A stretch of DNA of 37,416 nt, from positions 1-37,416 of the IMG/VR virus record IMGVR_UViG_3300014501_000040. The stretch is one strand, 5' to 3'. A model generated the notes under the pieces. That model was not told the DNA's origin. It worked only from the letters and a program-made list of their open reading frames with translations, and made no database searches. The DNA comes from a virus. The position numbers and the translations under genes were made by a program. Positions 15,505 through 24,958 of the stretch are shown in pieces (positions within the stretch are counted from its first letter, which is position 1; the number at the start of each line of letters is the position of its first letter).

Positions 15505-15629
15505 TGCAAGAAACGTGCCAATAGGACAAAACTGGTGCAAGAATTGTGCCAATAGGACACTATCGGGATGCAAGAACCGTGCCAATGGCATATAATAATT
15601 TGAACAGTTCGTGCAAGAAGCGTGCCAAT
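15505..15629. repeat. Iteron-like array of four 18-base repeats
   Basis: TGCAAGAANYGTGCCAAT-type units lie at 15505-15522 (AAACG), 15536-15553 (AATTG), 15569-15586 (AACCG) and 15612-15629 (AAGCG), all in the same orientation; only the two or three central bases vary. Start-to-start distances are 31, 33 and 43 bases, close to whole helical turns. The first two units are each followed by AGGACA. A truncated unit (TGCAAGAAC) is at 15434. Near-copies of an AT-rich segment, CATATAATAATTTG (15589) and CATGTAATAATCTG (15641), follow units three and four. The array sits between the divergent arms, fitting a replication origin or a cooperative operator. Confidence 0.72.
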
Positions 15630-15738
15630 CTGTTGAAAGCCATGTAATAATCTGTAACAATTCGTGATTGGCCAGGGATTAGCGGTCGTGTGATGAATTT
15701 GGCGTGAATAGGACCATATTAAATCTGGAGCAATGACA

Positions 15739-16979: not shown

Positions 16980-17082
16980 ACATATCGAGGTGATTTTCGG
17001 GTTCGAAGGCCCGCGGGTGCGTTATTTGAGAGTGCCCGCTACCTTGCTGCCCCTCAAAACCGAGAACATGGAGAGAACATTT

Positions 17083-17107
17083 CATGCTTATCCGGTTGCC
17101 ACACACA
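17083..17107 (+). repeat. Left inverted repeat flanking methyltransferase 1
   Basis: CATGCTTATCCGGTT (17083-17097), three bases, then ACACACA (17101-17107). The reverse complement recurs at 17769-17793 with 15 of 15 and 7 of 7 matches around three differing bases, so the methyltransferase gene is bracketed by imperfect 25-base inverted repeats. Confidence 0.75.
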
Positions 17108-17125
17108 AAAGCTGAGGCCTACTAG
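17084..17125 (+). CDS. 13-codon leader ORF before methyltransferase 1
   Basis: GGAGAG then ATG at 17084 encodes MLIRLPHTKAEAY and stops with TAG immediately before the methyltransferase ATG (TAGATG). This would couple translation of the two. The ORF lies within the left inverted repeat, so it might be incidental. Confidence 0.3.
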   Translation: MLIRLPHTKAEAY

Positions 17126-17779
17126 ATGTTGACGCGAACAAAACCCAAAGCTCTTGACCTTTTCTGCTGTGCCGGCGGCGCGGGAATGGGCTTGTGGCAA
17201 GCCGGATTTGAGGTTGTCGGCGTTGATATTGAACCGCAGCCTCACTACCCCTTCGCCTTCTTCAAAGCCGACGCTCTGACGTACCCGCTCAAAGGCTTTG
17301 ATTTCGTGTGGGCCAGTCCGCCTTGTCAGGCTTACACACTGGCGCAACGTATTCGGGACAACAAGCACCCTGACCTGATCGAACCTATCAGGAAGCGGCT
17401 GCAACGCCTTGGAGTGGCATGGGCGATTGAGAACGTGGTAGGCGCACCACTCATTAACCCGATTGAACTTTGCGGGGCGATGTTTGGCTTGCAAGTTTAC
17501 CGGCATCGCCTTTTTGAGTGCTCGTTTCCTATCGAAGCCCCGCCCCACCCCGTTCACATGGCGCCCCTTCGCAAAATGGGGCGTCCCGTGCGGCCGGGCG
17601 AGTTCATGCACGTTGTCGGCAACTTTTCCGGCGTTGCCCAAGCCCGCAAGGCCATGGGGATTGACTGGATGATGCGCGACGAATTGCGGGAGGCGATACC
17701 ACCCGCTTACGCCAAGTTCATCGGAACAGCCGCAATGGCATATATCAACCAGACACAAGATGTAGGGCTGTGTGTCTAA
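17126..17779 (+). CDS. DNA cytosine-C5 methyltransferase, short form (copy 1)
   Basis: A 217-residue member of the C-5 cytosine methyltransferase family. Motif I DLFCCAGGAGMGL (residues 11-23) binds S-adenosylmethionine. VGVDIEPQ (31-38) is motif II. SPPCQ (64-68) holds the catalytic C67. ENV (102-104) is motif VI, YRHRLFE (125-131) corresponds to motif VIII, and PPAYAKFIG (192-200) to motif X. The region between motifs VIII and X is only about 60 residues, so the target recognition domain is minimal. No restriction endonuclease lies nearby, so it is probably an orphan enzyme protecting phage DNA. A paralogue is at 24282-24953. It is flanked by inverted repeats. Confidence 0.88.
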   Translation: MLTRTKPKALDLFCCAGGAGMGLWQAGFEVVGVDIEPQPHYPFAFFKADALTYPLKGFDFVWASPPCQAYTLAQRIRDNKHPDLIEPIRKRLQRLGVAWAIENVVGAPLINPIELCGAMFGLQVYRHRLFECSFPIEAPPHPVHMAPLRKMGRPVRPGEFMHVVGNFSGVAQARKAMGIDWMMRDELREAIPPAYAKFIGTAAMAYINQTQDVGLCV

Positions 17780-17793
17780 ACCGGATAAGCATG
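17769..17793 (-). repeat. Right inverted repeat flanking methyltransferase 1
   Basis: TGTGTGT (17769-17775), three bases, AACCGGATAAGCATG (17779-17793): the reverse complement of the left repeat at 17083-17107. It spans the methyltransferase stop and the ribosome site and ATG (17791) of the next gene. A third copy of its 15-base core, in the same orientation, is at 24944-24958. Confidence 0.75.
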
Positions 17794-18198
17794 GAACATT
17801 TGATTAAAGAAGCCTTTCGTCGCATGACTAGCGAACAAACTTGGCAAGATCGCGCCATCGCACTCACCGGGGGTAACAAGTCCGCCCCCGGTACAGTGCT
17901 GTTGGCCATGTTGGGGCGGTCTACCAAGCGCCCGCATTTTGGCCGGGAAGGTTATATTGACGCGCAAGGCATGGTGCGGTCCTCGATGGTTCATGCCACG
18001 AAAGGCTGGTTTCCGAATGTCCCTATCTGTGACAAGATCACGTTGCGGGACACGTTTCGGAAAATAGCCGATGAACTGAAACTATCGGACGTTGATCGGG
18101 TAGCCATGTTTGGCGAACTCAAAAAATGGTTGACACGCGACGATAGCGCAGCTTATGATCCGCGCGAGAGACTTGGCGAATGGTACAAACCCTCTTAA
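17791..18198 (+). CDS. Hypothetical early-region protein
   Basis: A 135-residue protein starting MEHLIKEAFRRMTSEQTWQD at the ATG within the right inverted repeat (GGA is seven bases upstream); a GTG 21 bases earlier is less likely. It is mixed alpha/beta and basic in the middle (LGRSTKRPHFGREG), ending RERLGEWYKPS. No motif of known function. The DNA at its 3' end (GGCGAATGG...TCTTAATGGAGA) is nearly repeated at the end of the mini-ORF at 18614-18700, indicating local recombination. Confidence 0.65.
   Translation: MEHLIKEAFRRMTSEQTWQDRAIALTGGNKSAPGTVLLAMLGRSTKRPHFGREGYIDAQGMVRSSMVHATKGWFPNVPICDKITLRDTFRKIADELKLSDVDRVAMFGELKKWLTRDDSAAYDPRERLGEWYKPS
18130..18159 (+). promoter_or_regulatory. 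Candidate promoter before the pentapeptide gene
   Basis: TTGACA (18130-18135), an 18-base spacer, TATGAT (18154-18159). Both boxes are near consensus, but they lie inside the coding sequence of the preceding gene. The predicted start near 18166 would serve the gene at 18211. Confidence 0.45.
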
Positions 18199-18210
18199 TG
18201 GAGAGAACAA

Positions 18211-18621
18211 ATGAAAATTATTCAGTTAATAACGGGTAAAGTCTTATGGGAAGGCGCGAACCTGACAGGCGCGGACCTGACAAGCACGAACCTGATGCGC
18301 GCGAACCTGATGCGCGCGAACCTGATAGGCGCGAACCTGACAGGCGCGGACCTGACAGGCGCGAACCTGAGAGGCGCGAAGCTGATGCGCGCGAACCTTA
18401 TTGTTGGTGGCCAACGGTCGGACGGGTATCTGTTTTTGCTATACCGGCACACCAACGGGGATGTGCGAGTTCGCGCGGGGTGTCGGTATTTTTCAGTAAA
18501 AGAAGCAAAAGCGCATTGGCTTGCTACCCGCAAAGGCACGCAACTAGGTAAAGAAAGTCTTGCCTTAATCGCTGGTCTTGTTGCTTTGGCAAAAATTGCA
18601 GGGTGGAAGTGTGATGATTAA
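18211..18621 (+). CDS. Pentapeptide-repeat protein
   Basis: A 136-residue protein. After a short N-terminus ([15 protein letters not shown]), about ten tandem A(N/D)LxG/R-type pentapeptides (residues about 16-66) should form a short right-handed quadrilateral beta-helix. The C-terminal 70 residues ([34 protein letters not shown]...) form a separate domain. Pentapeptide proteins such as Qnr/MfpA mimic DNA and bind gyrase; this repeat block is much shorter than theirs, so that role is only a possibility. The coding DNA is a visible 15-base tandem repeat (GCGAACCTGACAGGC-like). TAATGGAGA overlaps the previous stop and acts as ribosome site. Confidence 0.8.
18256..18404 (+). repeat. 15-base tandem repeats encoding the pentapeptides
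   Basis: Roughly ten units alternating GCGAACCTGACAGGC, GCGGACCTGACAGGC and GCGAACCTGATGCGC in head-to-tail order. Near-identity at the DNA level suggests recent expansion and possible length variation by slippage. Confidence 0.8.
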
Positions 18622-18700
18622 GCAGCATAGCGAACTTTTGGCATTGCTCGATCAACGGTACAAGGAACTGTCGCTAGGCGAATGGAACAAATCTTCTTAA
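18614..18700 (+). CDS. 28-residue chimeric mini-ORF (recombination scar)
   Basis: The ATG overlaps the pentapeptide gene stop, and the frame encodes a peptide starting [20 protein letters not shown] and ending GEWNKSS. Its first part matches the interior of the next protein ([17 protein letters not shown]) through a 39-base perfect repeat (18643-18681 and 18857-18895). Its end matches the C-terminus of the gene at 17791-18198 (LGEWYKPS). It is therefore a hybrid left by recombination around the pentapeptide gene. It may still be translated. Confidence 0.55.
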
Positions 18701-18895
18701 TGGAGAAAGCTAAATGAGTGCTTTTACAGTCTGTGACTGTTGTAAGAAAGACTTGCAAACCATCAAGCAACTAGGCCAACACATCAAGGATTGTATTGTA
18801 TTGGCTCCGCCGCACCGGGCGCGTGACAAGTTTCACGCGCAAAGTGAACTGTTGGTATTGCTCGATCAACGGTACAAGGAACTGTCGCTAGGCGA
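18643..18895 (+). repeat. 39-base direct repeat pair
   Basis: The same 39 bases occur at 18643-18681 and 18857-18895 without a mismatch, 214 bases apart. The first copy is in the mini-ORF, the second inside the gene at 18714-19097. Confidence 0.85.
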
Positions 18896-19097: not shown

Positions 19098-19336
19098 TTG
19101 ATGCTGACCTGGAACTGTGGCGCGCGGTAATGGCCCAAGCTTTTACCGACTTGAGGCTATCGCCGACACTCAAGGACAAAGTATCGCGGCGGGCGAGGCG
19201 CAACGCAATCAAGTGGTTCACAACACGCAGCGATGACCTGGAAACAGTGTGCGAGTGTGCCAATCTCTCGCCGCACACAGTCATGCAGGAAGCCCGAAAT
19301 CTTCTTAATGGAAAAAAAGTGGAGAAATCTAAATGA
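19094..19336 (+). CDS. Small helical, HTH-like protein
   Basis: An 80-residue, Arg/Lys-rich helical protein. The segment WFTTRSDDLETVCECANLSPHTVMQEARNLL (residues about 43-73) has the helix-turn-helix look of small phage DNA-binding proteins. It is coupled on both sides by ATGA overlaps. It may be an early transcription regulator. The fold is guessed from pattern, with no family assigned. Confidence 0.6.
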   Translation: MIDADLELWRAVMAQAFTDLRLSPTLKDKVSRRARRNAIKWFTTRSDDLETVCECANLSPHTVMQEARNLLNGKKVEKSK

Positions 19337-24202: not shown

Positions 24203-24281
24203 TCCTGCTCCATTCATGACACAAACGCGCGTCGCCGAGGAAGCCGGCTACGAAGGGCGTGCAGGACATGAAGGCGCGTTG

Positions 24282-24953
24282 ATGCGAACCAAATTGAAGG
24301 CTTTGGACTTGTTTTGCTGCGCGGGCGGCGCGGGCATGGGCTTGCACCAAGCTGGCTTTGATGTTGTAGGTGTCGATATTAACCCTCAGCCACATTATCC
24401 GTTTACCTTCTTTCAGGCGGACGCCATGAAATTCTCGCTCAGTGGCTTTGATTTCATTTGGGCCAGTCCGCCTTGTCAGCAATTCTCGATTACAAAGTCT
24501 CTATTCCGTGACAGGAAGCGGGAGCATCGAAAGCTGATCGTCCCGATACGGAAGCGCTTGGCGACCACTGGCCTGCCCTATGTCATCGAAAATGTTATAG
24601 GTGCGCCGCTTAACGACCCCATTATGCTTTGTGGCACGATGTTCGGTCTTAAGGTTTACAGACACCGAATTTTCGAGAGCAACTTTACAATTGTCGCTCC
24701 CCCACACAGGAAGCACACTCAAGGCTCTACAGGCAGTCACCGCGGTTACAGTCGAGGCAATCCGATGGTTTGCGTGGCCGGCCACAACTTTAAGCGCGAG
24801 GAAGGTGAAGCCGCAATGCGTATTGATTGGATGACCAACCGAGCGGAACTTTCTCAGGCCATCCCGCCCGCCTATGCCAAGTTCATCGGGAAGGCGGCAA
24901 TGGCTCATATCAGACAGACACAAGATGTGGGACCATGTGAGGAAACCGGATAA
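24282..24953 (+). CDS. DNA cytosine-C5 methyltransferase, short form (copy 2)
   Basis: A 223-residue paralogue of the enzyme at 17126-17779. Motif I DLFCCAGGAGMGL (residues 9-21), SPPCQ with C65, ENV (103-105), YRHRIFE (126-132) and PPAYAKFIG are all intact. The two are nearly identical at motifs and at the C-terminus (QTQDVG) but differ in the variable region (MTase 2: HTQGSTGSHRGYSRGNPMVC; MTase 1: PVHMAPLRKMGRPVRPGEF), so they may recognise different targets. The ATG at 24282 has GAAGG upstream and matches the start of copy 1; an earlier ATG (24216) lacks a ribosome site. The stop lies in a third copy of the 15-base repeat. Confidence 0.87.
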   Translation: MRTKLKALDLFCCAGGAGMGLHQAGFDVVGVDINPQPHYPFTFFQADAMKFSLSGFDFIWASPPCQQFSITKSLFRDRKREHRKLIVPIRKRLATTGLPYVIENVIGAPLNDPIMLCGTMFGLKVYRHRIFESNFTIVAPPHRKHTQGSTGSHRGYSRGNPMVCVAGHNFKREEGEAAMRIDWMTNRAELSQAIPPAYAKFIGKAAMAHIRQTQDVGPCEETG

Positions 24954-24958
24954 GCATG
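24944..24958 (+). repeat. Third copy of the AACCGGATAAGCATG repeat
   Basis: AACCGGATAAGCATG is identical to 17779-17793 and lies at the same place relative to a methyltransferase 3' end. Here the ATG opens only an 8-codon frame (MPGMSLSR), apparently a remnant of what followed copy 1. Confidence 0.8.

Follow-up and report, generated by a model that had tools for sequence, protein, structure and literature searches.

Mobile insertion cassettes, such as mic-qnrD and the MIC231 element of Bacillus cereus that is mobilised in trans by IS231A, place cargo between the inverted repeats of an insertion sequence, lack a transposase and are flanked by a target duplication (PMC3913671). Members of the IS1595 family usually generate 8-bp target-site duplications (TSDs) and have an N-terminal zinc finger and a DDE domain (PMC8101967), and A/T-rich 8-bp repeats are described for ISApl4 (PMC12561309). 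Passenger genes accompany IS1595-family transposition in tISCpe8 and MTnSag1 (PMC5704250), which encode their own transposase, tISCpe8 being a lincomycin resistance element of a bacterial plasmid. Ultra-small mobile elements with inverted repeats are known from mycobacteriophages as MPME1 and MPME2 (439 bp; PMC3029335), two related types that add 6 bp beside IR-L.

Here we describe a 711-bp element at positions 17083-17793 of a 37,416-nucleotide stretch of viral DNA (the window, meaning the whole stretch that was analysed). Like mobile insertion cassettes, it holds cargo between insertion-sequence repeats, has no transposase and is bordered by a target duplication. Unlike tISCpe8 and MTnSag1 it encodes no transposase of its own, and unlike the MPMEs it has an 8-bp direct duplication and belongs to a group whose cargo varies by copy. 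Since MIC231 and passenger-bearing IS1595 elements are already known, so is the kind of element found here. What distinguishes it is its phage setting, the range of its cargoes and ends that bear a start codon: whereas MIC231 is bacterial and IS231-based, the phage cassettes are IS1595-based, occur in uncultured phages, carry about 70 cargo families and have a left end built around a start codon. A search of the open-access literature found no earlier description of phage IS1595 cargo cassettes. We conclude with high confidence that the segment 17083-17793 is an IS1595-family transposon of the non-autonomous kind and thus a mobile insertion cassette, which carries one gene and is presumably moved in trans.

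Structure of the methyltransferase cassette

The first-ranked inverted-repeat pair of the window has 28-nt arms at 17080-17107 and 17769-17796, which match at 24 of 28 positions (86% complementary) across a spacing of 661 nt. The inverted repeats that a preliminary description had placed around a methyltransferase gene are thus real, and at the tips of the element they are perfect over 15 bp (CATGCTTATCCGGTT). Overlooked in that description was an 8-bp sequence, GAACATTT, that is repeated directly and without mismatch just outside either tip. A target duplicated in this way next to terminal inverted repeats is the hallmark of DDE transposition. The features of the locus are as follows.

17075-17082, no strand: target-site duplication GAACATTT, left copy, identical to 17794-17801
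17083-17107, plus strand: left terminal inverted repeat CATGCTTATCCGGTTGCCACACACA; its first 15 bp equal the right end, and the same end occurs in about 100 elements
17084-17125, plus strand: possible 13-codon leader ORF MLIRLPHTKAEAY, putatively translated; its TAG directly abuts the methyltransferase ATG
17126-17779, plus strand: cargo, a small C5 cytosine-specific DNA methyltransferase of 217 aa (phrog_363, E=1e-37)
17769-17793, minus strand: right terminal inverted repeat, CATGCTTATCCGGTTTAGACACACA on the reverse strand; contains the cargo stop TAA and the ATG at 17791
17791-18198, plus strand: target gene with no assigned function, its ATG supplied by the element's right tip
17794-17801, no strand: target-site duplication GAACATTT, right copy
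24216-24958, plus strand: second C5 methyltransferase, 245 aa, with a right end only (24944-24958)

Exact copies of the 15-mer lie at 17083 (plus strand), 17779-17793 (minus strand) and 24944-24958 (minus strand), the last being the third copy already reported behind the second methyltransferase gene. With up to three mismatches allowed, the window holds four matches against 0.93 expected, a number reached in none of 100 shuffles. A scan of tips with up to five mismatches found no pair in the window besides 17083-17793 with a matching octamer. CATG was considered as the target duplication and ruled out, because the duplicated 8 bp are those outside it.

The whole methyltransferase ORF lies inside the repeat pair, with its stop codon within the right arm. 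Its product contains FCCAGGAG (motif I), PPCQ (IV), ENV (VI) and RHR (the RxR of motif VIII), as looked for in a C5 enzyme; the Pfam family PF00145 misses this 217-aa copy and reaches the window's second methyltransferase. Ahead of the cargo, the leader frame reads MLIRLPHTKAEAY, a stop and at once the methionine of the methyltransferase, and the GGAGAG upstream of the leader comes from the target site. Related left ends, which we call type 1, read CATGCTTATCCGGTTGCCACACACAAACGCTGAGACCTACTAGATGTTGA, and the cargo of type-1 cassettes is read from the ACACAAACGC end. In 26 of 33 type-1 left ends, a frame of 13 codons begins at an ATG (or variant) within the terminal repeat, and the cargo ATG comes directly after its stop. 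Translational coupling of leader and cargo is a plausible reading of this arrangement, which would be conserved equally under common descent of the ends. A consensus scan of the window's left end found no sigma-70 promoter.

At the other side, the terminal CATG of the right end provides an in-frame ATG (17791) for the downstream gene, whose product begins MEHLIKEAF. Before the insertion, this gene probably started at the TTG at 17800, which lies behind GGAGAG in the joined empty site. Searches for Pfam families, PHROG families and viral relatives of the gene returned none and, because of this lack of relatives, no empty site for the window's own insertion was found.

Other repeats occur near the cassette. 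A 24-nt direct repeat (TGCAAGAAACGTGCCAATAGGACA and variants) is present four times at 15505-15635 with a spacing of 31-43 nt, in the manner of an operator or iteron array. An intergenic module, TTCTTAATGGAGARA, recurs at 18187-18211, 18689-18713 and 19297-19316, where it bears the ribosome-binding site of three genes, and a similar sequence, ATGGAGAGAAC, stands immediately upstream of the cassette. A 57-nt direct duplication (18625-18681 and 18839-18895, 93% identical, 214 nt apart) falls directly after a pentapeptide-repeat gene and inside the next gene.

Sister elements and their transposases

An exact search of viral contigs with the 15-mer returned at least 118 stretches, many with two convergent copies about 250-2000 bp apart. 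We defined pairs as exact convergent 15-mers less than 3 kb apart and accepted duplicated octamers with at most one mismatch. Among the matches listed, 39 of 52 such pairs have an 8-bp repeat at offset 0, compared with none at 12 other offsets (-6 to +6). The remaining 13 of these 52 lack a target duplication, for which recombination between elements is a likely reason. The 15-mer scan, three further viral scans and one scan of bacterial genomes together yielded at least 121 distinct elements with the same ends and 8-bp duplications, at least 109 of them viral. These 109 sit on 98 viral contigs, whose 1.5-kb flanks form 91 clusters; most therefore represent separate insertions in different phages.

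The duplicated octamers follow a symmetrical AT-rich consensus, RWW[TCG][AGC]WWY (RWWBVWWY). With a crude ORF caller, an interrupted ORF was recorded for 40/85 insertions and for 1088/1549 random sites, a lower frequency among the insertions (Fisher p 1.8e-5). The window and the elements of L101 and L052 had prompted a rule of insertion between Shine-Dalgarno sequence and start codon, which we dropped because Shine-Dalgarno-like motifs beside insertions are not clearly enriched (18/85 versus 247/1549 in controls). An alphaproteobacterial metagenome-assembled genome (MAG) carries two elements back to back (L234:2899-3806) with the octamer CGTTGATC present three times, which suggests that one inserted into the other's target duplication.

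In a complete count, 113 viral stretches contain a 22-base pattern, GCTTATCCGGTTNNNACACACA, for which bacterial and archaeal genomes totalling 257 Gb gave 21 matches. None of 50,697 phage records matched the 50-bp type-1 left end. Uncultured viruses are therefore the main source from which we know the cassettes. Several of the 21 prokaryotic matches are MITEs of 142-177 bp in Methylobacter, Thiobacillus and a gammaproteobacterial MAG. In Methylobacter MAGs (L238, L245, L232 and L235), MITEs of 172 bp that have 8-bp duplications and related ends, CGTGCTTATCCGGTT, are present in several copies per genome.

Thirteen viral elements (1.6-2.3 kb) encode an IS1595-family transposase and 96 lack one. 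The transposase-bearing sisters have long open transposase frames; Zn_ribbon_IS1595 was matched in 8 representatives and DDE_Tnp_IS1595 in 7 (best E 6.9e-34). This low share is not merely due to the later cargo-type search patterns, since in the scan seeded by the 15-mer alone about one-seventh of the elements among the matches listed carry a transposase. The window's 15-bp end consensus is that of the 13 transposase elements and GAACATTT lies on both its sides, as in the IS1595 family; the zinc-ribbon and DDE_Tnp_IS1595 domains are absent from the window element and present in sisters with the same ends. No transposase was found in the 37-kb record (best tblastn E 0.09), which may be a fragment. 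The window element is thus only a derivative and not an autonomous IS1595 insertion sequence, which accounts for the correct earlier remark that no transposase lies inside. On five contigs a cargo element is accompanied by a transposase element, a co-residence suggestive of mobilisation in trans.

The published IS1595 features agree with the phage elements (PMC8101967; PMC12561309). The closest plasmid transposases belong to IS1595 elements of Rhizorhabdus/Tardibacter (65.9% aa identity) and Acidiphilium (65.6%; 61.8% for the ISAcr1 type), and the nearest are mostly from Alphaproteobacteria; phage records gave two distant transposase matches only. The ends of these plasmid relatives share 12-13 of 15 bases with the window's and are likewise flanked by 8-bp duplications: CTTGCCTATCCGGTT (TSD GAATCAGC), CATGCCTATCCGCTT/CCTGCCTATCCGGTT (TSD GAACGAAG) and CGTGCCTATCCGCTT (TSD GGTCGTTC), with ends of the CTTGCCTATCCGGTT or CGTGCCTATCCGCTT type in Acidiphilium and Tardibacter. 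Judged by their sequence, they are clearly of the same kind as the phage cassette ends. The phage sisters also resemble ISAcr1-like elements in their zinc-ribbon and DDE_Tnp_IS1595 transposase, which shares 62-66% aa identity with the plasmid enzymes. The window element and most phage sisters depart from ISAcr1-like elements in having no transposase, in their cargo of one phage-type gene and in their concentration on viral contigs.

Two further observations concern the transposase-bearing relatives. An IS1595-type element on plasmid pACMV1 of Acidiphilium multivorum (L291:406-2527, 8-bp duplication GAACGAAG) carries, besides its transposase, an AbiEii-type nucleotidyltransferase toxin gene. 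By eye, the ends of the transposase-bearing elements of L055, L117, L015 and L071 show TTGACA in the repeat, 17 nt and then TAGTAT or TAGTGT, which looks like a candidate inward sigma-70 promoter.

Cargo diversity and possible exchange

Linkage by blastp placed the first 100 elements in 74 protein families, and the 96 transposase-free viral elements carry about 70 unrelated cargo families. Annotation covered 71 representatives including 8 transposases, which leaves 63 that are transposase-free, and by plain count at least 13 of these 63 carry DNA-modification genes. These comprise C5 methyltransferases (the window, L073 and L116), three N4/N6 methyltransferases, D12-type methyltransferases (L011, L030 and, by PHROG, L067), a Dam (L219) and Mom proteins (L008, L207 and, by PHROG, L045). 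Other named cargoes are NADAR, phosphoadenosine-phosphosulfate reductase-like proteins (4), MazG, radical SAM, HNH and TnpB, and the remainder are mostly small proteins without a family. The putative TnpB/OrfB_IS605-like protein is encoded by a cassette with these ends on a viral contig (L051:1253-2408) and would represent a transposon-associated nuclease inside a transposase-less IS1595 cassette.

Methyltransferases of the window's family ride in four cassettes (the window, L147, L073 and L116). The nearest relatives of the window enzyme (67-76% aa identity, L119-L124) lack the repeat, which indicates an ordinary phage family that is sometimes carried in cassettes; a methyltransferase tree, in which few branches are strongly supported, requires two changes for the cassette methyltransferases. 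Identity between the methyltransferase cassettes of the window and L147 is 94-100% in the first ~127 compared positions and 85-96% in the last ~127, with 39-76% in the stretch between, a mosaic that points to recombination swapping the central, specificity-determining part. This methyltransferase cassette of L147 has no target duplication, as expected after such an exchange. Neither a left end nor a target duplication was found for the second methyltransferase of the window (gene at 24216-24953), which probably represents a cassette of this type that has decayed or recombined.

Mobility and alternative readings

Joining the flanks of the L186 element yields a sequence with 99.75% identity over 401 bp to L274, which has a single copy of the octamer and thus represents an empty site. 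The cassettes at L147:3367 and L004:11810 are 98.3% identical and lie at different octamers (AATGGATA and CTATATTT), and the pairs L102/L117 and L255/L063 are likewise near-identical at different targets. In L277, an element interrupts a sequence whose intact homologues occur in L117, L076 and L102, the homologues in L117 and L102 being themselves cassettes of the same family. Judging from these sequence comparisons, the empty site and the near-identical cassettes show mobility. Together with the target duplications and about 100 sisters at unrelated loci, they bear out the earlier suggestion of a cassette that moves.

An unlikely alternative that nonetheless accommodates part of the data is that the cassettes are fossils of transposition, which now spread among phages chiefly through homologous recombination at the ends they have in common. 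The 13 of 52 exact pairs lacking a TSD among the matches listed, the mosaic methyltransferase cassettes of the window and L147 and the transposase-free 37-kb record are consistent with such spread. Against it, the window's inverted repeats and target duplication are perfect, the transposase sisters keep their open frames, and the L147/L004 pair and the nearly identical empty site point to recent transposition at loci other than the window.

The preliminary description had also proposed that the repeats form an operator through which the enzymes control their own synthesis; the methyltransferase would then bind the 15-mer and repress its own gene. The arms do overlap the start region and stop of the cargo, and a copy follows the second methyltransferase as well; since the same ends flank about 70 unrelated cargoes as well as IS1595 transposases, the nearest methyltransferases lack them and an operator is not expected to bring 8-bp target duplications, we consider this proposal highly improbable. 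We give equally little credence to movement by another system, either integron-like attC capture or a homing endonuclease. Single-gene cassettes with swapped cargo resemble integron cassettes, and integrons have been reported from phages (PMC9892861), but 8-bp duplications at scattered AT-rich octamers and ends held in common with IS1595 transposase elements fit DDE transposition rather than an integrase or homing. An invertible switch flipping between the arms, also raised previously, would fit their inverted orientation and is the least credible reading of all, as site-specific inversion neither makes 8-bp target duplications nor moves cassettes between loci, no invertase was found, and type-1 cargo is read from the ACACAAACGC end.

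A transposase-free IS1595 cassette thus remains the preferred reading, based on the observed ends, target duplications, transposase-bearing sisters, empty site of a sister and cargo diversity. Transposition would be carried out in trans by an IS1595-family (ISAcr1-like) transposase from a co-resident element, whether carried by the phage itself, by a second phage, by a plasmid or by the host. Insertion into AT-rich RWWBVWWY octamers would create the 8-bp duplication. The conserved left end would provide the cargo with a start codon, perhaps in coupling with the short leader ORF that begins within the repeat, and the conserved ends may offer homology for recombinational swapping of cargo or parts of it. 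In the window, the cargo would methylate phage DNA and might thereby shield it against restriction.

The acquisition of small accessory ('moron') phage genes, including orphan methyltransferases, Mom and NADAR, is mostly unexplained. That about 100 unrelated phage contigs have the same ends around different single genes, many of them for DNA modification, suggests that phages trade such genes by transposon. The chances seem evenly balanced that a large and mostly viral family of IS1595 cassettes, each with a single gene and a standard, expression-ready left end, lets unrelated phages pass around and reshuffle genes for counter-defence (methyltransferases, Mom, NADAR) with transposases acting in trans. 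A DDE-transposon vehicle with varying cargo in about 100 unrelated uncultured phage contigs would provide a concrete and searchable mechanism, and searches baited with the end sequence and 8-bp duplications may reveal new small counter-defence genes of phages.
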